From NCBI GenBank assembly GCA_013390905.1, contig JACATG010000001.1, positions 186,001-250,000 of the forward strand: 64,000 nucleotides of DNA, written 5' to 3'. Source of the DNA: Marine Group I thaumarchaeote (lineage in GTDB: Archaea > Thermoproteota > Nitrososphaeria > Nitrososphaerales > Nitrosopumilaceae). The position numbers and the translations under genes are program-made. Numbering within the stretch: the stretch's first letter is position 1; each line of letters begins with the position of its first letter. Shown in pieces: positions 23,368 to 51,362 of the stretch. The notes beneath the pieces are model-generated. The model worked only from the letters and a program-made list of their open reading frames with translations. It was not told where the DNA came from and did no database searches.

Positions 23368-23468
23368 GCAGAGGTATCGAAGCCCGGTCAACCGAGAGGG
23401 ACTCAAGATCCTCAAAATAAGAAATCCCTTCTCTCAGGAGTTCGTGGGTTCGAATCCCACCCTCTGCA
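23368..23468 (+). tRNA. tRNA-Leu(CAA) with a short intron
   Basis: Acceptor stem GCAGAGG (23368-23374) pairs with CCTCTGC (23461-23467), followed by discriminator A. The T arm GTGGG-TTCGAAT-CCCAC is perfect, and a long variable arm (CTC-TCAG-GAG) marks a class II tRNA. The anticodon loop reads CTCAAG with anticodon CAA at 23404-23406. The 5' anticodon stem AGGGA (23397-23401) pairs with TCCCT at 23425-23429, leaving 16 extra bases (23408-23423) after position 37, the canonical archaeal intron site. CCA is not encoded. Confidence 0.9.
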
Positions 23469-38543: not shown

Positions 38544-38670
38544 TGGTCCCAAGCGAAGGAATTGAACCTTCGACAACCCGGTTTCTGTATGCCTGATATG
38601 CTGTTATTCGGTCAGCCATCTAAAGCCAACAACTACAGCCGGAAGCTCTACCAGGCTGAGCTAGCTTGGG
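38544..38670 (-). tRNA. tRNA-Tyr(GTA) with a 50-base intron
   Basis: On the minus strand CCCAAGC (38670-38664) pairs with GCTTGGG (38554-38548), giving the archaeal tRNA-Tyr C1-G72 pair, discriminator A and a genomic CCA (38546-38544). TA at 8-9, D arm GCTC-AGCCTGGTA-GAGC and T arm GAAGG-TTCAATT-CCTTC are all canonical. Anticodon GTA is at 38636-38634. Stem TCCGG pairs with CCGGG only after removing 38583-38632, a 50-base intron after position 37. Confidence 0.92.
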
Positions 38671-39420: not shown

Positions 39421-40347
39421 TTAATTTTTTCTTATTTTAGTAAATGATGCTCCCAAAATTTTCTTTCTAGTAATTTCAAGTGTCTTAAAAACAACATCAA
39501 AAATACTGTCTGTCTTATTTCCTAAAATTCTGATGACTATCCCTGATTCATCTGGAAGAATAGACATCCCAACAGATACTATATCCGTATTTCTAATGTT
39601 TTTGATTATGGTATTTTCCAGTTCAATCACATCTTCCTTTCTGGTCAAGATGTAAACTGTTCCGACTATGCTATATTTTCCTAATATTCCAAAATTTCCT
39701 AACCTTTGTTTTTTTGGCTCAATCTTTTCATTTTCTATAAATCTTATTTTCTTATCCTGATTCTTACAGTGTGTTCTCAGGTAACAGATGTCATATTCAA
39801 AAGATTCCCCCATAGCAACTCGTCCTGAAGTTAAAATTTCTGAATAAATTAAGGTGGAGTTATTGTGTACGTTGAGATTCACTTTTTGATAATATCTAGA
39901 GTTCTTGTGTGGGATGATTTGATCAGGGATATATTCTAGATAACAATTCTCGTCAACTGTGATGTTTACAATTTGTGATGCAAAATTTGTGTTCATACTG
40001 TAGATACTAGTTGCACCTTGAGTCGTCATGTGGGCAATGGCCTTATTTTTTAATAATACATCAATCCTGTATCTATCTCCTTGTAAAATTCCTCCCGATG
40101 GTGACATGACATAAAGATACGCCATTTCTGGAAGTGAGTTTTCGGGATATAGTACTCGTTGAAATTGTAATGGTACTTGAGAAAATTGTCTTGTAACAAC
40201 TGTCTTACCTGTACTGTCTTTTTGAAGTTCCAAGTCAAGAATGCCCACTTTTCCTGATTTTCCAACTCCTAACTGTTTTACTTTAGCCTCATAGATCTGG
40301 ATTTCCTTTGGTATGTCATTTGGCGTAAAATATTCTAGTTTATTCAA
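39421..40347 (-). CDS. ureD: Urease accessory protein UreD (UreH)
   Basis: 308 aa. Family elements: 'YVMSPSGGILQGDRYRIDV', 'AHMTTQGATSIYSMN', YLEYIPDQIIPHKNSRYYQ, and 'SEILTSGRVAMGE'. UreD binds the apo-urease and serves as the platform for UreF-UreG during nickel delivery. It is the last gene of the ureEFGD operon and lies three bases after ureG. Confidence 0.92.
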   Translation of the reverse strand: MNKLEYFTPNDIPKEIQIYEAKVKQLGVGKSGKVGILDLELQKDSTGKTVVTRQFSQVPLQFQRVLYPENSLPEMAYLYVMSPSGGILQGDRYRIDVLLKNKAIAHMTTQGATSIYSMNTNFASQIVNITVDENCYLEYIPDQIIPHKNSRYYQKVNLNVHNNSTLIYSEILTSGRVAMGESFEYDICYLRTHCKNQDKKIRFIENEKIEPKKQRLGNFGILGKYSIVGTVYILTRKEDVIELENTIIKNIRNTDIVSVGMSILPDESGIVIRILGNKTDSIFDVVFKTLEITRKKILGASFTKIRKN

Positions 40348-40350
40348 TAA

Positions 40351-41007
40351 TCACACCTCTTGTGTAATTGTTGATTTTGGTACAGAATCAAGCAAAACAT
40401 CATGAATGATATGTTCAGTTATTTTCATTACCCCTTCATCAGTTTTGCAGTTGATAAATTCAAATGGTTTTTCACTTCTGATCTTTTTTGCATCATTTTT
40501 CATAACATCAAGATCTGCTCCTACCATCTTAGCTAAGTCAATCTTATTGATCACTAAAAGGTCACAACTCTCAATCCCTAAACCTCCCTTCCTTGGATAT
40601 TTGTCTCCTCCTGCAACATCAATTATGTAAATAGAATAATCTGCAAGAAGTGGGCTGAACGTAGTTGTAATGTTATCTCCCCCACTTTCAATTATTATAA
40701 GATCAAGATCAGTATGTTTTGATTCTATTTCTTCTATTACAGAAAGATTCATGGATGGATCTTCTCTAATTGCAGTATGTGGGCATCCACCTGTTGCAAG
40801 ACCTATAACTAAATTTTCTGGAAGTAATCCTCTATTCGTAGCCAAATTAGCTCTCATTCTATCAGCATCTTCTTTTGAAATCACATCGTTTGAGATTATG
40901 CATACACTGTATCCCTTTTCAGCTAACATTGGTACCAATCGTTCAATAAGCATACTTTTTCCTGAACCGACAGGTCCTCCAATACCAATTCTTGGAATGT
41001 GAGTCAT
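40351..41007 (-). CDS. ureG: Urease accessory GTPase UreG
   Basis: 218 aa nickel-inserting GTPase. P-loop GIGGPVGSGKSMLIERL at the N-terminus, 'LATGGCPHTAIREDPSMN' with the conserved Cys-Pro-His metal motif, ESGGDNITTTFSP, DVAGGDKYPRKGG and NKIDLAKMVGADL. It is intact and of normal length. Lies between ureF and ureD in the same operon. Confidence 0.96.
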   Translation of the reverse strand: MTHIPRIGIGGPVGSGKSMLIERLVPMLAEKGYSVCIISNDVISKEDADRMRANLATNRGLLPENLVIGLATGGCPHTAIREDPSMNLSVIEEIESKHTDLDLIIIESGGDNITTTFSPLLADYSIYIIDVAGGDKYPRKGGLGIESCDLLVINKIDLAKMVGADLDVMKNDAKKIRSEKPFEFINCKTDEGVMKITEHIIHDVLLDSVPKSTITQEV

Positions 41008-41024
41008 GATGAAAAAACCAATTT

Positions 41025-41732
41025 TTATGTAATAAACATTTTAGAATCCATCTTTTCATGTGACATTTGAAAAATATCAACTTGAGGCGCAAATTGCCAC
41101 ATTTCAAAAAGTGATTTATTTGAATATTCTTTGATGGTTTGACTGATAATTGGTTTTATACTGTGAATAATTTTTTGACCTTCAAAATGCTGAATTAATC
41201 CTAATCGTAGTGCTGCGCCTACAATACCAACAGTAAAACCATATAGCATCATCGTCATGCTTTTTCCTTTTTTGATTTTCAATGCATTACAGCAAACCGC
41301 AAATGACACCGGAAATACTCCATGTGCTTTGTTTTTTATTACATTATTTTTGTATTGATTCAAAATTTTATCATCTTTTACAAATTCTGACACACATTTG
41401 ATTAGTTGAACACCTGATCTTACTGATGCACTACGGATTTCTTTTATTAATTTTGTGGCAAAAACCATACTATCTGCCTCAACTACTTTGTCAAAATCCT
41501 GTTTGTTCGCACTATCAAACGCATTTGCAAGTGCAACACAATCTGATGGTCCTATCTGTTGAATAATGTTGATTCTAATCATCTCTATCAAATCTATCAT
41601 CCCTTTAATTTTTTTTTCTGTGAACAGAAATTCTAATCCATTTGAAGTAGCAAAAATACCAGTTGGAAAAAACGAGTCCGATAATTGCATTACTCCCAAT
41701 TCTTGTTCTATCTCATCAATGTTCATGTACAT
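41025..41732 (-). CDS. ureF: Urease accessory protein UreF
   Basis: All-helical protein of 235 aa. The N-terminal 'MQLSDSFFPTGIFATSNGLEF' (normally SDSxFPTGxFxHSxGLE) is the family mark, and 'GIVGAALRLGLIQHFEGQKII' lies near the C-terminus. UreF acts as GTPase regulator of UreG. It overlaps the ureE end by 17 bases. Confidence 0.92.
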   Translation of the reverse strand: MYMNIDEIEQELGVMQLSDSFFPTGIFATSNGLEFLFTEKKIKGMIDLIEMIRINIIQQIGPSDCVALANAFDSANKQDFDKVVEADSMVFATKLIKEIRSASVRSGVQLIKCVSEFVKDDKILNQYKNNVIKNKAHGVFPVSFAVCCNALKIKKGKSMTMMLYGFTVGIVGAALRLGLIQHFEGQKIIHSIKPIISQTIKEYSNKSLFEMWQFAPQVDIFQMSHEKMDSKMFIT

Positions 41733-42201
41733 TAGCTCCTGAATGAGAGGAAAATATTCGTTCTTCTACTATAATTTCAATATGGTTAATAATACTTTGA
41801 AATAATTTTGTGAATACTTCCTTTTCTGAATCTGCTTGAATTGGAAATGAAATCTCATTGCTTTTAATGGATATAGGTCTGTGTCTGTTTCCAATTATGT
41901 GTCCTAGAAGAACCATTACATCTGTCATATTTTTATTTTTTAGTCTAACAGTAATTATTTTTTCAGGTAATTGCTCTACAACAATTTTCATGTCTCCATT
42001 TTTAATGACATCTCCATGACGAAGTTTTATTCCTGGTTCCAAATTCAAACCAACATCTGTTCCACGATCAGTCTTTCTTCTCAAAATTCTTTTTTCTAAT
42101 TCCATTCGTGAGATTTTGAGCTTTTCAAAATTTCCACTTTTTAACTCATTAAATTCTTCATCAAGAAAAATATTTCCTATTGGTGAATTAACTTCTAACA
42201 C
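41716..42201 (-). CDS. ureE: Urease accessory metallochaperone UreE
   Basis: 161 aa. N-terminal peptide-binding domain with 'KISRMELEKRILRRKTDRGTDVGLNL' and the C-terminal metal domain with MVLLGHIIGNRHRPIS, whose His is the nickel site at the dimer interface. There is no long His tail, only a short SHSGANVHEH end. It begins the ureEFGD operon and is divergent from ureABC. Confidence 0.9.
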   Translation of the reverse strand: MLEVNSPIGNIFLDEEFNELKSGNFEKLKISRMELEKRILRRKTDRGTDVGLNLEPGIKLRHGDVIKNGDMKIVVEQLPEKIITVRLKNKNMTDVMVLLGHIIGNRHRPISIKSNEISFPIQADSEKEVFTKLFQSIINHIEIIVEERIFSSHSGANVHEH

Positions 42202-42290
42202 AAGTAACTTTGTTTTTTGACAAAGTTATACTTTGTTAGATTCTTGTAATATTTTTAATGATTAAATACTCTTGTACACCATTCAATTCA
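42202..42290. promoter_or_regulatory. Divergent urease control region with a perfect inverted repeat
   Basis: The region between ureE and ureA contains TAACTTTGT (42205-42213) and ACAAAGTTA (42220-42228), a perfect 9-base inverted repeat with a 6-base spacer, followed by a partial third copy (ACTTTGTTA at 42230-42238). TATA-like sequences follow toward ureA near 42262 (TTAAATAC). The symmetry and location suggest a protein operator controlling both operons. Confidence 0.5.
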
Positions 42291-42593
42291 ATGATGCTTA
42301 CTCCTAGAGAATTAGAAAAGTTAAATATTTTTGTTACAGCAGAACTTGCTCGTAGAAGAAAAAATCGAGGACTGAAACTCAATCATCCTGAAACAGTATC
42401 TATTATTGCTGATCATATCTTAGAAGGTGCAAGAGATGGAAGAACTGTTCCAGAACTTATGAGCTCTGGTAAACATGTTTTATCAAAAGACGATGTGTTG
42501 CCTGGTGTTGCAGAACTAATTCATTCCATTCAGGTGGAAGCAACTTTTGAAGATGGAACAAAGCTAGTAACAGTCCATGACCCTGTTGTGTGA
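42291..42593 (+). CDS. ureA: Urease subunit gamma
   Basis: 100 residues from ATG 42291 ([11 protein letters not shown]), which matches the family N-terminus; an ATG at 42258 would add 11 unrelated residues. Visible motifs: [30 protein letters not shown], '[10 protein letters not shown]' and VTVHDPV. Part of the (UreABC)3 nickel enzyme that hydrolyses urea to ammonia and carbamate. The stop overlaps the ureB GTG. Confidence 0.95.
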
Positions 42594-42967
42594 GAAATAT
42601 GATTCCTGGTGAATACTTTCTATCTGATAAGCCAATAATTGCCAACGTGGGAAAATCTATAACATCCGTTAGTGTAAAAAATACTGGCGATAGACCAATA
42701 CAGGTAGGATCACATACACACTTTTTTGAAGTAAATAAAGCACTTGAATTTCCACGAGAAAAATCCTACGGTTGTCATCTCAACATTCCTTCTGGAACAT
42801 CAGTAAGATTTGAACCAGGAGATACAAGAGAAATTGAACTAACAGAATTTGGTGGGGAAAAAATTGTTTATGGTTTTAGCGGTCTGGTAAATGGAAGTCT
42901 AGAAGAAAAACAAAATGAGGCATTCAAAAAAGCTACAGAACAAGGATTCAAGGGGCTTACATTATGA
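42590..42967 (+). CDS. ureB: Urease subunit beta
   Basis: 125 aa. [13 protein letters not shown], '[22 protein letters not shown]', [16 protein letters not shown]-like segment ([15 protein letters not shown]) and '[10 protein letters not shown]' are all typical. The GTG at 42590 overlaps the ureA stop; the ATG at 42599 also fits. Separate gamma and beta genes are the bacterial arrangement. It overlaps ureC by four bases. Confidence 0.95.
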
Positions 42968-44676
42968 CTCTAAACATTCCGAGAAAAACCTATGTTGATT
43001 TGTTTGGTCCTACTGTAGGTGACAGGATTCGTCTTGCGGATACTGAATTGATTATTGAAATTGAAAAAGACTTGATCAAATATGGTGATGAGGTTGTATT
43101 TGGTGGAGGAAAAAACATACGAGATGGACAAGGACAAGCAAGTGGAGTACCTAGAACAAAATCACTTGATCTTGTGATTACTAATGCAATAGTGATGGAT
43201 CCTATTTTGGGAATTGTCAAAGCGGATATTGGAATAAAAGATGGAAAAATTATTGGTGTCGGAAATGCTGGCAACCCTGATATCATGGATGAAATTGATA
43301 TGATAATTTCCTCAAACACTGAGATAATTGCTGGCGAGCATACAATTTGTACTCCTGGAACGATTGATTCACATATTCATTTTATTTCTCCTCAACAAGC
43401 AATACATGCAATCTGTAATGGTACTACTACAATGATTGGTGGTGGAACTGGCCCTGCTGATGGAACAAATGCAACAACATGCACTCCAGGTAAATGGAAT
43501 ATACATAGAATGATTGAATCCGTTGATGAATTACCACTGAACTTTGGATTTCTTGCAAAAGGAAATGATTCTCGTGAAACTGCATTACTTGAACAAATTG
43601 AAGCAGGAGCTTGTGGGCTAAAATTACATGAAGATTGGGGTTCAACTCCTGCCACAATTGATTCTGCTTTGCGGGTTGCAGATAAAACTGACACTCAAGT
43701 TGCAATTCATACAGATACTCTAAATGAATGTGGATTTGTTGATGATACCATTGAGGCAATTGCTGGAAGAACAATCCATACATATCATACTGAAGGAGCT
43801 GGAGGTGGTCATGCTCCAGATATTATAAAAATTGCAGGTGAAGAAAACATACTTCCCTCATCTACAAATCCTACAAGACCTTTCACAATTAACACACTAG
43901 CAGAACATCTTGACATGATGATGGTCTGTCATCATCTAAACTCATCAGTTCCTGAAGATGTGTCTTTTGCAATGTCTAGAATTAGAGGGGAGACTATTGC
44001 AGCAGAGGATGTACTACATGATATTGGAGTATTGAGTATGATGTCTTCCGATAGTCAAGCTATGGGGAGAGTTGGAGAAGTTACAACCAGAAACTGGCAG
44101 ACTGCTGATAAAATGAAAAAGATGGTTGGCGCTTTACCAGAAGACAATGCCCAAAATGATAATTTTAGAGTAAAGAGATATCTTGCCAAAATCACAATAA
44201 ATCCTGCCATAACTCATGGAATTTCTGATTATGTAGGTTCCCTGCAGCCTGGAAGATTAGCTGATATTGTAATTTGGTCCCCTCAATTCTTTGGAGTCAA
44301 ACCAAAAATGATCATTAAAGGCGGTTTTATTGCATATTCACTTATGGGGGATCCAAATGCCTCAATTCCTACTGCTGAACCAGTTCTGTATCGTCCTATG
44401 TTTGGGGCCCTTGGTCAAACAAAACATTCTACTTCTGTAATCTTCACATCACAACTAGCACTAGACAAAGGTATTGAATCCGAAATCAATTCAAAAAAGA
44501 AACTAGTTCCTGTAAGAAACTGTCGTTCTATTGGTAAGAAAGATATGCTGTATAATGATCTCACTCCAAATATTGAGGTCAATCCTGAAACATATGAGGT
44601 TAAAGTTGATGGAAAACTTGCAACTGTAGATCCAGCGGATAAAGTTTCTATGTCTAGACTTTACAACTTGTTTTAA
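42964..44676 (+). CDS. ureC: Urease subunit alpha (catalytic)
   Basis: 570 residues. Active-site elements are complete: [13 protein letters not shown] (two nickel-binding His), the carbamylated lysine in [33 protein letters not shown], the flap cysteine and histidine in MVCHHLN, and the nickel-bridging Asp in SSDSQAMGR. Length and N-terminus ([18 protein letters not shown]) match active ureases. With the ureEFGD genes and two transport candidates nearby, the organism should use urea as ammonia and CO2 source. Confidence 0.97.
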
Positions 44677-44694: not shown

Positions 44695-45453
44695 TTAGTT
44701 AAATGAAAATAATTTATTATCTAATCCGATTGAAAATACAATATTAATACCAATAATGAAAGTTATACTAGCTATTGCATATCTAAGATATTTAGTTATA
44801 GAACTTATTTTTGATAATAAAATAAATGGTAAACCTATAACCCCGCTGGCAACAGTCATTCCAATTATACTTCCTGCACCAAATAAAATTAAAAAATAAA
44901 TCATCATATCAAAACCATTCATTGTAGAAGCAGTTAATGCTACAAGGCTACCACTACCCGCAATTCCATGAACACAACCTATTAGATATGCTCTGTGACC
45001 ATGTCTGTGATTTTCACTATGGGTATGAAGATGAGTATGAGAAATTCCGTTTGAATGTTTGTGAGGATGAATATGTTTTTGTTTAAAAATACTTCTGTTT
45101 GTAAACGTAAAAATTCCTAAAATAATCAACATAAAACCAACAACAACTTCGGCACTAACAAAAAAATTATCAGGTATGTTTAATGATAAACCGGCAATCA
45201 ATAAGCCAATTAGAATGATACTGGATGTGTGTCCCATTCCCCAAAGTGCTCCTCTTAAAGAAGAATTGATAGTTAGTCTCCTTAAGCCTCGTTTTTTTGA
45301 ACCAGTAGTATTATCATTATTTCTTAATAGTTGAGTGGAAACAGCACTAAGATGATCAGGCTCAAAAGCATGTACTAACCCAATCATCAGACCTGCAATT
45401 ATTATTAAAAAAGGATTGTTGGCTTGTAACATTCCCATTATTGTTTCAATCAA
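44695..45453 (-). CDS. NicO/UreH-type nickel transporter with His-rich loop
   Basis: 252-residue membrane protein with about six hydrophobic segments. GLVHAFEPDHLSA near residue 25 is the HX4DH-type metal motif of nickel/cobalt transporters. A cytoplasmic or external loop near residues 125-155 holds about eleven histidines in HxH patterns (IHPHKH, HTHLHTH, HRHGH). 'GMGHTSSIILIG' is a second conserved His. It begins with TTG, eight bases after the stop of the UreA-like gene, as the third gene of the ureohydrolase operon. Likely supplies Ni(II) for urease or for the ureohydrolase. Confidence 0.82.
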   Translation of the reverse strand: MIETIMGMLQANNPFLIIIAGLMIGLVHAFEPDHLSAVSTQLLRNNDNTTGSKKRGLRRLTINSSLRGALWGMGHTSSIILIGLLIAGLSLNIPDNFFVSAEVVVGFMLIILGIFTFTNRSIFKQKHIHPHKHSNGISHTHLHTHSENHRHGHRAYLIGCVHGIAGSGSLVALTASTMNGFDMMIYFLILFGAGSIIGMTVASGVIGLPFILLSKISSITKYLRYAIASITFIIGINIVFSIGLDNKLFSFN

Positions 45454-45461
45454 TCATCTCA

Positions 45462-45863
45462 CTACTCATATGCTATCTGTTTCCGTTCATCAAAAAAATA
45501 CTGATCAATTCGTATAGGTGCTGTAATAGATATTTGTTCACTATCAATATCATTTGTTGTAATTGTAAAAGATAATTTTCTCAAGCTTTCAGGAACCCCA
45601 ATCATAACTTGATGTGGTAAAAGAAGTTCTGGAATATGTTTTTGAATTTCGCTGATTGTTTTATGTTCATTTAATGAATTTATGACATATGCAACAAACA
45701 ACCCCAGTGTCTCGTTTATGTTTAACCGCATATTGTTTAAAAGGTGTTTTTTGATTAATTGTGTAGATTCAAAGAAAATTAATTCATGAGATTTTTCATA
45801 ATGATATATTTTAGTAAATGGTTTGATATCAGGATCTCCCTGTACCAATACTTCAATTTTCAT
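45462..45863 (-). CDS. Divergent UreA-like (urease gamma) paralogue
   Basis: 133 aa. From about residue 27 it aligns, almost without gaps, to UreA of this window: NMRLNINETLGLFVAYVI against [18 protein letters not shown]; then KTISEIQ against RTVPELM; VMIGVPESLRKLSFTI against [16 protein letters not shown]; and ISITAPI against VTVHDPV. The HPE and GARDGRT signatures are lost, so it is not a normal urease subunit. An extra 25 residues precede the match. It is coupled to an arginase-family gene (TAATG overlap) and followed by a nickel transporter. Homology is my reading by eye; function is unknown. Confidence 0.65.
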   Translation of the reverse strand: MKIEVLVQGDPDIKPFTKIYHYEKSHELIFFESTQLIKKHLLNNMRLNINETLGLFVAYVINSLNEHKTISEIQKHIPELLLPHQVMIGVPESLRKLSFTITTNDIDSEQISITAPIRIDQYFFDERKQIAYE

Positions 45864-46978
45864 TAATCTCTCTTTGGGATTTTAGACGTTGGATTGCCAA
45901 AACTGTATGTGTTTCCAGTACCCCTGTACGCATTTGGTCTTACAGGGTCTCCTCCATCCAAACCTCTCTTTGTTAATGACAATCCAGCTAATAGTTCGAT
46001 AACTAGTCTTTGTCCCAATCCAGATGTGATACCTCCATTGTAAGAACTTGAATCACTGACATCATATGCAGGAGCAATTTCTACCAAATCCATTGCAAAT
46101 CGATCAGGGTCAAATGATTTTGATAATAGACGTATCATTCTAATACCTTCTCTTGATGTAAGTCCGTTTGGTTCAGGTTCTCCAGTACCTGGTGCATAAG
46201 CAGGATCAAAAGAATCTATATCCCAACTAAGATAGACAGCATCTGTTCCATCATTTGCCCTGTCAGCTATTTCCTTTGCAATTACATCAATTCCTAATTC
46301 TTCAACATCAAGCATTGTAAACCATTGAAAATCTTGATCTGACATCCATTTGTACAAATCACGTCCTGGCCAATATCCTCTTGGACCTACTAGCGAATAG
46401 TTTTTTCCTTTTAGACAACCCATCTCCATTATTCTTCTAATGTGGGCTCCATGATCATACTTGAAACCAGTTAGTCCTTGTGGGGCGCAATCAGCATGTG
46501 TATCAAAATGAATCATACCAATATTTTTGAATTTTTTCTGAAAAGCTCTAACGTTTGCATAAGTGATTGAATGATCTCCTCCAAGCATTACAGGAATACC
46601 ATCTGCTTCTAACACTTCCTTGACTTTTATGGTCATTCTCTTGTGTGATTCTATTACATCGCCTGGTGAAACTATAACGTCACCATAATCTACTGTTCGA
46701 AAAGTTCCAAACGGATCTGCACCAGTTTCAATATTGAATCGTTCGAATGGAGGTGATGGAATTGTAGAAGCAGCTCTAATTGCTCTTGGTCCATATCTTG
46801 CTCCGGGGCGAATAGTGGTTCCAAAATCAAAGGGCTCCCCAATAATTGCAACATCAGGTTTTGCTTCAAGTAATTCTTTGTGTGTCCTTATCCAAGGAAG
46901 GTGTAAAAATGTATTAATTCCTATAAATGGTGCAACATCAGCACCTTGAAAATCATCACCATAAAATTCCATGCCCAT
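45863..46978 (-). CDS. Arginase/agmatinase-family ureohydrolase
   Basis: 371 residues. Binuclear-metal ligands are present: GGDHSITY, FDTHADCA (DxHxD) and WDIDSFDPAYAPGTGEPEPNG (DxDxxDP). Members cleave guanidino compounds (arginine, agmatine, guanidinobutyrate, or guanidine) to urea and an amine. The chain is longer than typical agmatinases (about 300) because of extensions at both ends. Some members of this superfamily use nickel in place of manganese; co-transcription with a UreA-like protein and a NicO transporter makes that worth testing. The urea product could feed the adjacent urease. Substrate cannot be assigned. Confidence 0.85.
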   Translation of the reverse strand: MGMEFYGDDFQGADVAPFIGINTFLHLPWIRTHKELLEAKPDVAIIGEPFDFGTTIRPGARYGPRAIRAASTIPSPPFERFNIETGADPFGTFRTVDYGDVIVSPGDVIESHKRMTIKVKEVLEADGIPVMLGGDHSITYANVRAFQKKFKNIGMIHFDTHADCAPQGLTGFKYDHGAHIRRIMEMGCLKGKNYSLVGPRGYWPGRDLYKWMSDQDFQWFTMLDVEELGIDVIAKEIADRANDGTDAVYLSWDIDSFDPAYAPGTGEPEPNGLTSREGIRMIRLLSKSFDPDRFAMDLVEIAPAYDVSDSSSYNGGITSGLGQRLVIELLAGLSLTKRGLDGGDPVRPNAYRGTGNTYSFGNPTSKIPKRD

Positions 46979-48446: not shown

Positions 48447-48698
48447 ATGCAGAGTGTTAGCACACAAGAGGACATTGATAGAGAATCTCGAAGAATAATT
48501 AATGCACTATATGGAGATGTAACAGACTTTAGAGTTAATGAAACATTTCAAATTCCTGAAAAAGGACCTAGAGAAGCTTGGGACGTTCAAGTTAATTTCA
48601 TGATAGATGGTTTGAAATATACTGTAGACCTTGAAATCCAAGAAAAAGATGGCCATGTAGTTAACGCACGATTAATTGACACTATGACTCCACTCTAA
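48447..48698 (+). CDS. Uncharacterised small protein, 83 aa
   Basis: Unrecognised. Soluble, acidic, with a helical start (TQEDIDRESRRIINALYGDV) followed by beta strands (EAWDVQVNFMIDGLKYTVDLEI). The pattern helix plus three strands suggests a small alpha/beta domain. A TATA-like TTTTTATATTCG lies upstream near 48417-48428. No metal or catalytic motif. Confidence 0.65.
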   Translation: MQSVSTQEDIDRESRRIINALYGDVTDFRVNETFQIPEKGPREAWDVQVNFMIDGLKYTVDLEIQEKDGHVVNARLIDTMTPL

Positions 48699-48740: not shown

Positions 48741-49253
48741 TTACAGTGTTAAGATTTCTTTTGCTGCTTTAATCTTTACAAGTAATTCATTAATGTAGCT
48801 ATCTGCAAATCGTTCAAAGCTAGAAATTCCTTGACGATTATTTTTCTGTTTTTTATACTCTACATGAAGCCAATTAAAATCTGCTTCCTTTAGACTAATA
48901 GCATGGTTTTGAGCATCACTTTTTGATTCAAGCATGTTAATGATAAAATAACATACAAATTTTGTAAAGCATTTTACATTGTATCTTTCTTCATATTCTT
49001 TCCCAAGTTTTTCATGATTTTCTACTAGCCATTCTTTAACATCAGATCTAATAGTTATGGTGTAATAGCGGCCAGATAGTTCCAATTTTATTTTATGAGG
49101 TTCAACTGAGTAATACCCTTTCTTAATTTCATTCATTATGATGATTAAAGTACTAGGTAGAAACATTCCAGGATAACTTTTATCGGTTGCTTCTTGTAAT
49201 CTAGCTGTAACTACAGGTTTCATACCAAAAGTGGAATATCCTTTCCCTGGCAT
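48741..49253 (-). CDS. Uncharacterised protein, 170 aa
   Basis: Unrecognised. It begins MPGKGYSTFGMKPVVTARLQEA and continues with hydrophobic and charged segments: 'FLPSTLIIIMNEIKKGYYS', YYTITIRSDVKEWLVEN, then 'FVCYFIINMLESK' and a lysine-rich C-terminus. The first 70 residues look like a beta-alpha DNA- or ligand-binding unit ('VTARLQEATDKSYPGMFLPSTLI' resembles a ribbon-helix-helix arrangement), but this is weak. It sits next to the SSS transporter and might be its regulator; unproven. Confidence 0.6.
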   Translation of the reverse strand: MPGKGYSTFGMKPVVTARLQEATDKSYPGMFLPSTLIIIMNEIKKGYYSVEPHKIKLELSGRYYTITIRSDVKEWLVENHEKLGKEYEERYNVKCFTKFVCYFIINMLESKSDAQNHAISLKEADFNWLHVEYKKQKNNRQGISSFERFADSYINELLVKIKAAKEILTL

Positions 49254-49754: not shown

Positions 49755-51362
49755 ATGGTGGAAATGGATAGTTTTGGCATTGCCGTTGCTGTTTTCATAA
49801 TCATTACGCTTGTAGTTGGTGTATTTGCAAGTAAACTAGTCAAAAACAGCGGAAAGCGGCTGATCGTTGCAGGAAAAAGTTTGCCTTTGTTTATGGTTGG
49901 AACTATGCTTGCAGCACAAGCAGTTGATGGAAATTCATCGTTAGGAAATGTCGCACTTGTATTTGAATTTGGATTTTGGGCCGGAGCAGTAATTCCTATT
50001 GGTTTAGGATTATGTCTGTTTATGGTAGCTGCATTCTATGCAAAACCCCTAAACAAAATGTCAATGATTACGTTACCAGATTTCTATTTTAGAAGATTTG
50101 GAAATGGAGCAGAAGGCCTTTCTGGTATTCTTATGATTATTAGTTTCCTAATTCTTGTTGCAGGTAATTTAGCTGCTAGTGGATTTATTTTAGAAGTTGT
50201 GTTTGGTATAGATTATTTCTATGGTATTGCAATTTCAGCTATAGTTGTAGTGATATACACAATTGCTGGCGGACTATTTGCATCAGCCTATACAAATCTG
50301 TTCCAAGTTTATCTTGCAATAGGTGCATTCTGGGCTGGATTCCTATTCTTTTACGGAGGTTTCGCAGATACGCCTTGGGATGTCATTTACAACAACGCCC
50401 CCCCAGAGTTTATGGATCTTTCGGGATTATACGATGTGGCTAATGGAGCGCTGATCAATTGGGGAGCAATTCTTGCACTAGGATTGGGTGATATAGTTGC
50501 GCTTGACTTTATGGAGAGGGTATTTTCAGCCAAGAACCCGAAAACAGCACAGAGAGGTGCACTGATGGGTGGAGCACTAACAATGTTTACAGTAATTCCT
50601 ACAAGCATGCTAGGAATTGTAGCATTCTTCTATCTCCCAATAGATATTGATCCAAACATGGCTTTACCTTTGTTATCTACAGAAATCTTACCGTTTGCAA
50701 TTGGCGCAGCAATACTGATGGGAGTAATTGGAGCATCAATGTCTACTGCCAGTGGAGGACTATTAGCAATATCCAGTGTAATCTCCAGAAATATGATGCA
50801 GAGAATTATCAGAAGACGATGGCAACAAAAACCAAATTGGAGTGATAGTCAACTACTCAAAGTTACTCGTATTGCAATTATTCCAATGATGATCGTTGGA
50901 TTGGCAATTGGTTATTTTATACCTGCCCCAGGAATTTATCTTATCTTAGCATTTGACATAGTTTTTGCTGGAGCATTTGCTCCTCTAACATTTGGGTTAT
51001 TCTGGAAAAAGGCAAACATGCCAGCAGCTGTTGTATCACTTGTTGCAGGTTCACTAATACGATTAGCTTTCTTCTTTATAATGCCAGAAGATATCACTGA
51101 ATTTCCACAGGCAGGATTGGATACAATGATACCTCCAATCATTGCATTTGCTCTGTTTATCATAGTAGCCCTTGCAACCCAAAACAAGTATCCGGGTAAA
51201 GCAAGACATGATGTCAGAGATTATGTCCCACCAGAAGAAGATGTTATTTCAGGAGAAGATTTGAAACACTTCAAAGAAGATACTACAGCAACAAGTGCAG
51301 GAGGACCTGACTCTAGCACACCTGGACCTAATGAAGACATCCCAAGTAAGAATACAACGTAG
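49755..51362 (+). CDS. Sodium:solute symporter (SSS family), probable urea transporter
   Basis: 535 aa with about thirteen hydrophobic segments. SSS features are visible: 'IVAGKSLPLFMVGTMLAAQAV', 'DFYFRRFGNGAEGLSGI', a TIAGGLFASAYTNLFQ segment and the 'GASMSTASGGLLAISSVISRN' signature. The last 50 residues are a polar, proline- and serine-rich cytoplasmic tail. The family includes DUR3-type urea transporters; the position near a complete urease cluster makes urea the best guess, though polyamines or other amines are also possible. Confidence 0.82.
   Translation: MVEMDSFGIAVAVFIIITLVVGVFASKLVKNSGKRLIVAGKSLPLFMVGTMLAAQAVDGNSSLGNVALVFEFGFWAGAVIPIGLGLCLFMVAAFYAKPLNKMSMITLPDFYFRRFGNGAEGLSGILMIISFLILVAGNLAASGFILEVVFGIDYFYGIAISAIVVVIYTIAGGLFASAYTNLFQVYLAIGAFWAGFLFFYGGFADTPWDVIYNNAPPEFMDLSGLYDVANGALINWGAILALGLGDIVALDFMERVFSAKNPKTAQRGALMGGALTMFTVIPTSMLGIVAFFYLPIDIDPNMALPLLSTEILPFAIGAAILMGVIGASMSTASGGLLAISSVISRNMMQRIIRRRWQQKPNWSDSQLLKVTRIAIIPMMIVGLAIGYFIPAPGIYLILAFDIVFAGAFAPLTFGLFWKKANMPAAVVSLVAGSLIRLAFFFIMPEDITEFPQAGLDTMIPPIIAFALFIIVALATQNKYPGKARHDVRDYVPPEEDVISGEDLKHFKEDTTATSAGGPDSSTPGPNEDIPSKNTT

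Follow-up and report, generated by a model that had tools for sequence, protein, structure and literature searches.

An arginase-family ureohydrolase encoded with a UreA homologue beside the urease genes of Nitrosopumilaceae

Organization of the locus

Which substrate is split by an arginase-family enzyme whose gene overlaps that of a small UreA-like protein next to a urease gene cluster, and what does the UreA-like protein do there? These questions were raised by one locus in a stretch of 64,000 nucleotides (the window), which is part of a contig (C11) of a genome of 1.23 Mb (20 contigs, 98.5% complete). The locus was also found on a contig of a Nitrosopumilus MAG (L007).

Three genes follow each other on the minus strand. 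The first encodes an arginase-family ureohydrolase of 371 aa (UREO; positions 45863..46978), the second a UreA homologue of 133 aa (UreAL; 45462..45863), and the third a His-rich membrane protein of 252 aa (44695..45453) that is probably a UreH-like nickel transporter, as judged from the annotations of its homologues. By direct reading, the stop codon of UREO and the start codon of UreAL overlap in TAATG (45861..45865, minus strand), and 8 bases separate the end of UreAL from the TTG called as the start of the transporter gene; were translation to begin at the in-frame ATG of codon 6, the gap would be 23 bases. The tight three-gene operon beside urease that had been described in an earlier, sequence-only reading was recovered with the same coordinates, open reading frames, strand, overlap and 8-base gap. 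Junctions of UREO and UreAL overlap or abut across the loci of the family, and the TAATG overlap likely couples the translation of the two genes.

The UREO operon converges with ureA, ureB and ureC (42258..44676, plus strand), which encode the presumed consumer of the urea released by UREO. The genes ureE, ureF, ureG and ureD for urease nickel maturation (39421..42201, minus strand; assigned from ORF sequence and order) are located further out. One true ureA, separate from UreAL, and two arginase-family genes besides UREO are present in the same genome. A scan of a collection of genome contigs (genome_contigs) with UreAL returned a single locus. Opposite ureC, Rfam reports the 5' ureB antisense sRNA (43124-43407, minus strand; 50 bits), possibly a mere echo of the conserved urease coding sequence.

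UreAL as a homologue of UreA

UreAL is a true homologue of UreA, the urease gamma subunit. It matched PF00547 with 30.7 bits (cut-off 23.9), a model that was matched by 40 of the 43 members of the UreAL family. The family profile matched Klebsiella UreA with an E-value of 1e-14, and hhalign of UreAL against archaeal UreA gave 3e-11, a statistically supported match. Residues 27-105 were aligned with the UreA of the window without gaps, at an identity of just 20% and with a blastp E-value of 2e-5 for this single pair. The AlphaFold2 model was confident (pLDDT 87, pTM 0.80), and the top 17 PDB matches obtained with it in Foldseek were all urease gamma subunits or domains (probability 1.00). Pfam model, profile and fold agree with the derivation from UreA proposed at the outset, and both the near gap-free alignment from residue 27 and the lack of HPE and GARDGRT noted then were seen again, with NINET and NSLNEHKT at the equivalent positions.

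Sequence and fold are common to the two proteins over residues 25-118 of UreAL. Unlike UreA, UreAL has an additional N-terminal beta hairpin, its operon contains neither ureB nor ureC, and it coexists with a true ureA. UreAL remained below the UreA equivalog cut-offs (TIGR00193, 29 versus 82.3 bits; NF009712, 29.7 versus 123 bits). Invariant residues were N48, V86, G89, V90, P116 and I117, and dN/dS values of 0.19-0.33 indicated purifying selection, milder than that on UREO. The profile matches, the fold and the dN/dS values ruled out a chance match or a decaying copy of ureA. Across the 43 sequences, no His or Cys is conserved; UreAL is therefore unlikely to carry metal itself, and a function as metal-carrying chaperone was rejected.

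A relative of UreAL, UreAL2 (123-132 aa; hhalign E 1.5e-9, with no significant match to UreA itself), was found in urease clusters (L156:8118-8516:-, L157:10901-11272:+, L159:13648-14040:+ and L161:13239-13634:+). Its gene stands between those of a large symporter and of a protein that is probably secreted, and three of its four genomes lack UREO.

Enzyme type of UREO

UREO matched PF00491 with 266 bits (cut-off 22; E 4e-79). The metal ligands H136, D159, H161, D163, D253 and D255 were invariant in 26 sequences, as were E300, a Glu of the catalytic region, and T55 in the motif GTTIRPG. T55 aligns with the GTT of both guanidinases (GdmH) used as references, those of Synechocystis (7ESR/7OI1; Thr at position 97) and Nitrospira inopinata (9FEK). 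UREO and GdmH have in common the arginase fold, the six metal ligands, the second Thr of GTT, E300, a PEPxG loop and nickel genes nearby. H176 of UREO aligns to His222 of N. inopinata, with an alignment gap adjacent. UREO and GdmH differ in their neighbours, which for UREO are UreAL and a sodium/solute symporter, and in the specificity loop GTGEPEP (UREO residues 264-270; 46169..46189, minus strand), which is invariant in the orthologues of ammonia-oxidising archaea (AOA) and haloarchaea. Here Glu267 takes the position of the specificity Trp of the guanidinases (305/313) in every orthologue examined, AOA and haloarchaeal; agmatinase and guanidinobutyrase types carry Thr at this site.

The published residue rule for guanidinases demands Thr, His and Trp, and a 2024 survey based on it detected no genes for guanidine use in AOA (PMC11410670). 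UREO fails this rule because Glu267 replaces Trp. In the dimethylguanidine and metformin hydrolases (DmgH and MefH), loop residues 288-290 influence activity (PMC11399263); this loop presumably corresponds to UREO position 267. Glu267 hints that the substrate carries a further positive or hydrogen-donating group, or that guanidine is held in a different way. Guanidine itself is a doubtful candidate for the substrate. No guanidine riboswitch was found in the window.

In profile searches of the PDB, the best match of UREO was the Synechocystis guanidinase (5e-64), followed by the guanidinobutyrase GbuA (3NIO) and then the comammox guanidinase. GbuA differs from UREO in having Thr and Ser at the two specificity positions, and it fell outside the group formed by UREO and the guanidinases in the tree. 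This group had a support of 94/85 and carries a long-branch warning; its placement is informed by neither of the two other arginase-family genes of the genome, as L003 was absent from the tree and L004 had a branch of 6.8.

UREO might instead be a conventional Mn-dependent agmatinase that serves polyamine synthesis and stands in an incidental neighbourhood. This would agree with its matches to agmatinase models, all below the equivalog cut-offs (TIGR01230, 156.9 versus 174.3 bits; NF002564, 205.7 versus 302 bits), and with the 2-3 copies of speB reported for most AOA (PMC10753782). UREO-type genes appear to have been counted among these copies. However, the genome holds the two other arginase-family genes, UREO is patchily distributed and linked with genes for urease, the symporter and nickel, and both Glu267 and the grouping with guanidinases speak against this assignment, which is considered very unlikely. 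UREO adds a new clade to a known superfamily; UreAL is a new form of a known subunit, and its association is likewise new.

Conservation and loss of the UREO-UreAL pair

A sample of 200 Nitrosopumilaceae genomes was surveyed; each UREO locus was retrieved and its neighbours were mapped. Orthologues of UREO were present in 48 genomes (49 loci, identity 77-97%). UreAL was encoded directly downstream in 46 of the 48 assessable loci, where one locus at a contig edge was left out and one broken by an assembly N-run (L078) was counted as present. The pair also occurred in all three loci of soil AOA from another family of the same order (L140-L142). The order UREO-UreAL is conserved in Nitrosopumilaceae and soil AOA; of the three-gene order originally pointed out, the last member varies, since the transporter follows in just 32 of 49 loci.

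UREO is extremely constrained (dN/dS 0.005-0.06). In one genome (G164) UreAL is reduced to its first codons and a C-terminal scrap beside an intact UREO, the constraint on which equals that on other UREOs. In a second (G036) UreAL is cleanly deleted, and the transporter gene overlaps an intact UREO. UreAL is therefore not always needed, as these two lineages do without it. Orthologues of UREO with 47-50% identity are encoded on haloarchaeal plasmids, and no UreAL was found at these loci. The locus of G081 (L158, just upstream of 8730) is a decayed operon: UREO is missing, and about 50 codons are left of UreAL, immediately before an intact transporter gene and urease.

These losses bear on the view that UreAL serves UREO as a structural or regulatory subunit, for instance by capping the three-fold axis of a hexamer, and takes no part in nickel loading. 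Translational coupling, the near-constant adjacency of the genes, the hexameric state of UREO relatives (PMC11410670) and the requirement of metformin hydrolase for a non-catalytic partner subunit (PMC11399263) all fit such a subunit, yet in G164, G036 and haloarchaea UREO is kept where UreAL is missing. Moreover, UreAL evolves fast and UREO is almost frozen, as would not be expected of proteins that share a large fixed interface. A purely structural or regulatory subunit is accordingly rated as improbable, whereas physical contact of some kind between UREO and UreAL seems rather likely. A read-through fusion of the two, in frame in G056 and G089, was modelled with a pLDDT of 49, at which no interface was readable.

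Co-occurrence with urease and a symporter

The gene ureC was present in 44 of the 48 genomes with UREO and in 37 of the 152 without it; two of the four exceptions (G195 and G135) have urease genes at the UREO locus itself. This co-occurrence supports the idea, put forward from the window, that urea passes from the ureohydrolase to the neighbouring urease. After UreAL, the tightest genomic partner of UREO is a sodium/solute symporter (SSS) of 535 aa located 2.8 kb away (49755..51362, plus strand; PF00474), a candidate substrate importer that had been missed before. It was found in 43 of the 48 UREO genomes versus 3 of the 152 others and, among urease genomes, in 42 of 44 with UREO versus 3 of 37 without. 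Fisher p values for co-occurrence were 3e-17, 2e-34 and 6e-17; as the genomes are related, these overstate the number of independent events. A relative of the symporter is encoded near the Haloarcula and Halalkalicoccus orthologues (L136, L137 and L139), and the Natronorubrum orthologue (L138) adjoins a urease cluster. It is probable that the symporter imports the substrate of UREO.

In genomes without UREO, larger symporters of 667-769 aa are encoded beside urease. A sodium/solute symporter of 749 aa that adjoins urease (L156:5906-8155:+) carries a C-terminal universal stress protein domain, and similar genes for symporters of 749-769 aa are present in related loci.

UreAL might alternatively act on urease, by modulating UreA or competing with it during assembly, and owe its place in the operon to shared regulation. 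Its derivation from UreA and the presence of its distant relative UreAL2 in urease clusters of genomes lacking UREO point that way, and the latter leaves room for a role on the urease side. On the other hand, UreAL tracks UREO, urease genomes without UREO lack UreAL except for the remnant in G081, and UreAL no longer carries HPE and GARDGRT, the motifs of UreA. An action on urease is therefore held to be quite unlikely.

Probable nickel supply

The third gene of the operon had been taken for a His-rich NicO-type transporter. The His-rich loop and an H-x4-DH motif (HAFEPDH) were observed; the Pfam model NicO (PF03824) was not matched by the window transporter. Plasmid homologues are labelled as nickel transporter, urease accessory protein or member of the sulfite exporter TauE/SafE family. 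Further homologues come from genomes that lack UREO or urease, which weakened its candidacy as a UREO-specific gene. In a soil locus (L140) a NixA-type transporter takes its place. In two other genomes (L106:612-2061:- and L108:10764-12176:+), UREO-UreAL is followed in the same direction by genes for a NikR regulator and then a NixA-type transporter. Depending on the lineage, three kinds of nickel module are hence found downstream: a UreH-like transporter, NixA, and NikR with NixA. These modules and the grouping with nickel guanidinases provide context for the nickel dependence assumed in the sequence-only reading; the metal itself is inferred, and nickel is the probable one.

HypA (PF01155) was above the cut-off in none of the 200 family genomes, so that UreD-E-F-G are the sole nickel chaperones identified; ureE-F-G-D is also present at other UREO loci. 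UREO thus lacks chaperones of the HypA/HypB type. The Synechocystis guanidinase has dedicated ones, and that of N. inopinata is also without them. A parallel in operon design is offered by MefH/DmgH, likewise a nickel ureohydrolase (the nickel of UREO being presumed) whose operon also encodes a nickel transporter and a partner that is not catalytic (PMC11399263). In that system a degenerate ureohydrolase acts as the partner and HypA/HypB are the chaperones, whereas the partner of UREO is derived from UreA.

UreAL, as a protein derived from the gamma subunit, could serve as an adaptor through which UreD-E-F-G mature UREO in place of HypA/HypB, and AOA would thereby draw nitrogen and energy from a guanidino compound. 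In a cryo-EM structure, the mutation-tested contacts of UreD with urease are on the alpha and beta parts (PMC10121161), and the idea of a UreA mimic that recruits UreD is therefore weakened. The adaptor is regarded as unlikely, and a nickel-loading role of UreAL in the wider sense as somewhat less so, while still tentative.

Proposed role

The reading preferred here is that UREO is a nickel ureohydrolase acting on a guanidino compound taken up from outside, with urea passed on to urease and UreAL as an accessory protein; taken as a whole, it is judged to stand at about an even chance. The Na+/solute symporter would import a small guanidino compound, and UREO, probably with nickel, would split it to release urea. 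Urease would then turn this urea into ammonia for growth. UreAL, likely coupled to UREO in translation, would not be a catalytic subunit and may aid the assembly or nickel loading of UREO.

Should guanidine or a related compound prove to be the substrate of UREO, about one quarter of the sampled Nitrosopumilaceae would gain a source of nitrogen and energy, and UREO would point to a nitrogen source that AOA are not yet known to use. UreAL would be, to our knowledge, the first UreA-derived protein to serve an enzyme other than urease, and it would bear on the metal supply of nickel ureohydrolases where HypA/HypB are missing.

Additional features of the window

Two small proteins without a Pfam or NCBIfam match are encoded at 48447-48698 (plus strand) and 48741-49253 (minus strand); both recur near UREO in most loci of the family and in soil AOA. 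Two tRNAs, at 38547-38670 (minus strand) and 23368-23468 (plus strand), were seen by Rfam and missed by ARAGORN. Their lengths of 124 and 101 bases suggest introns.
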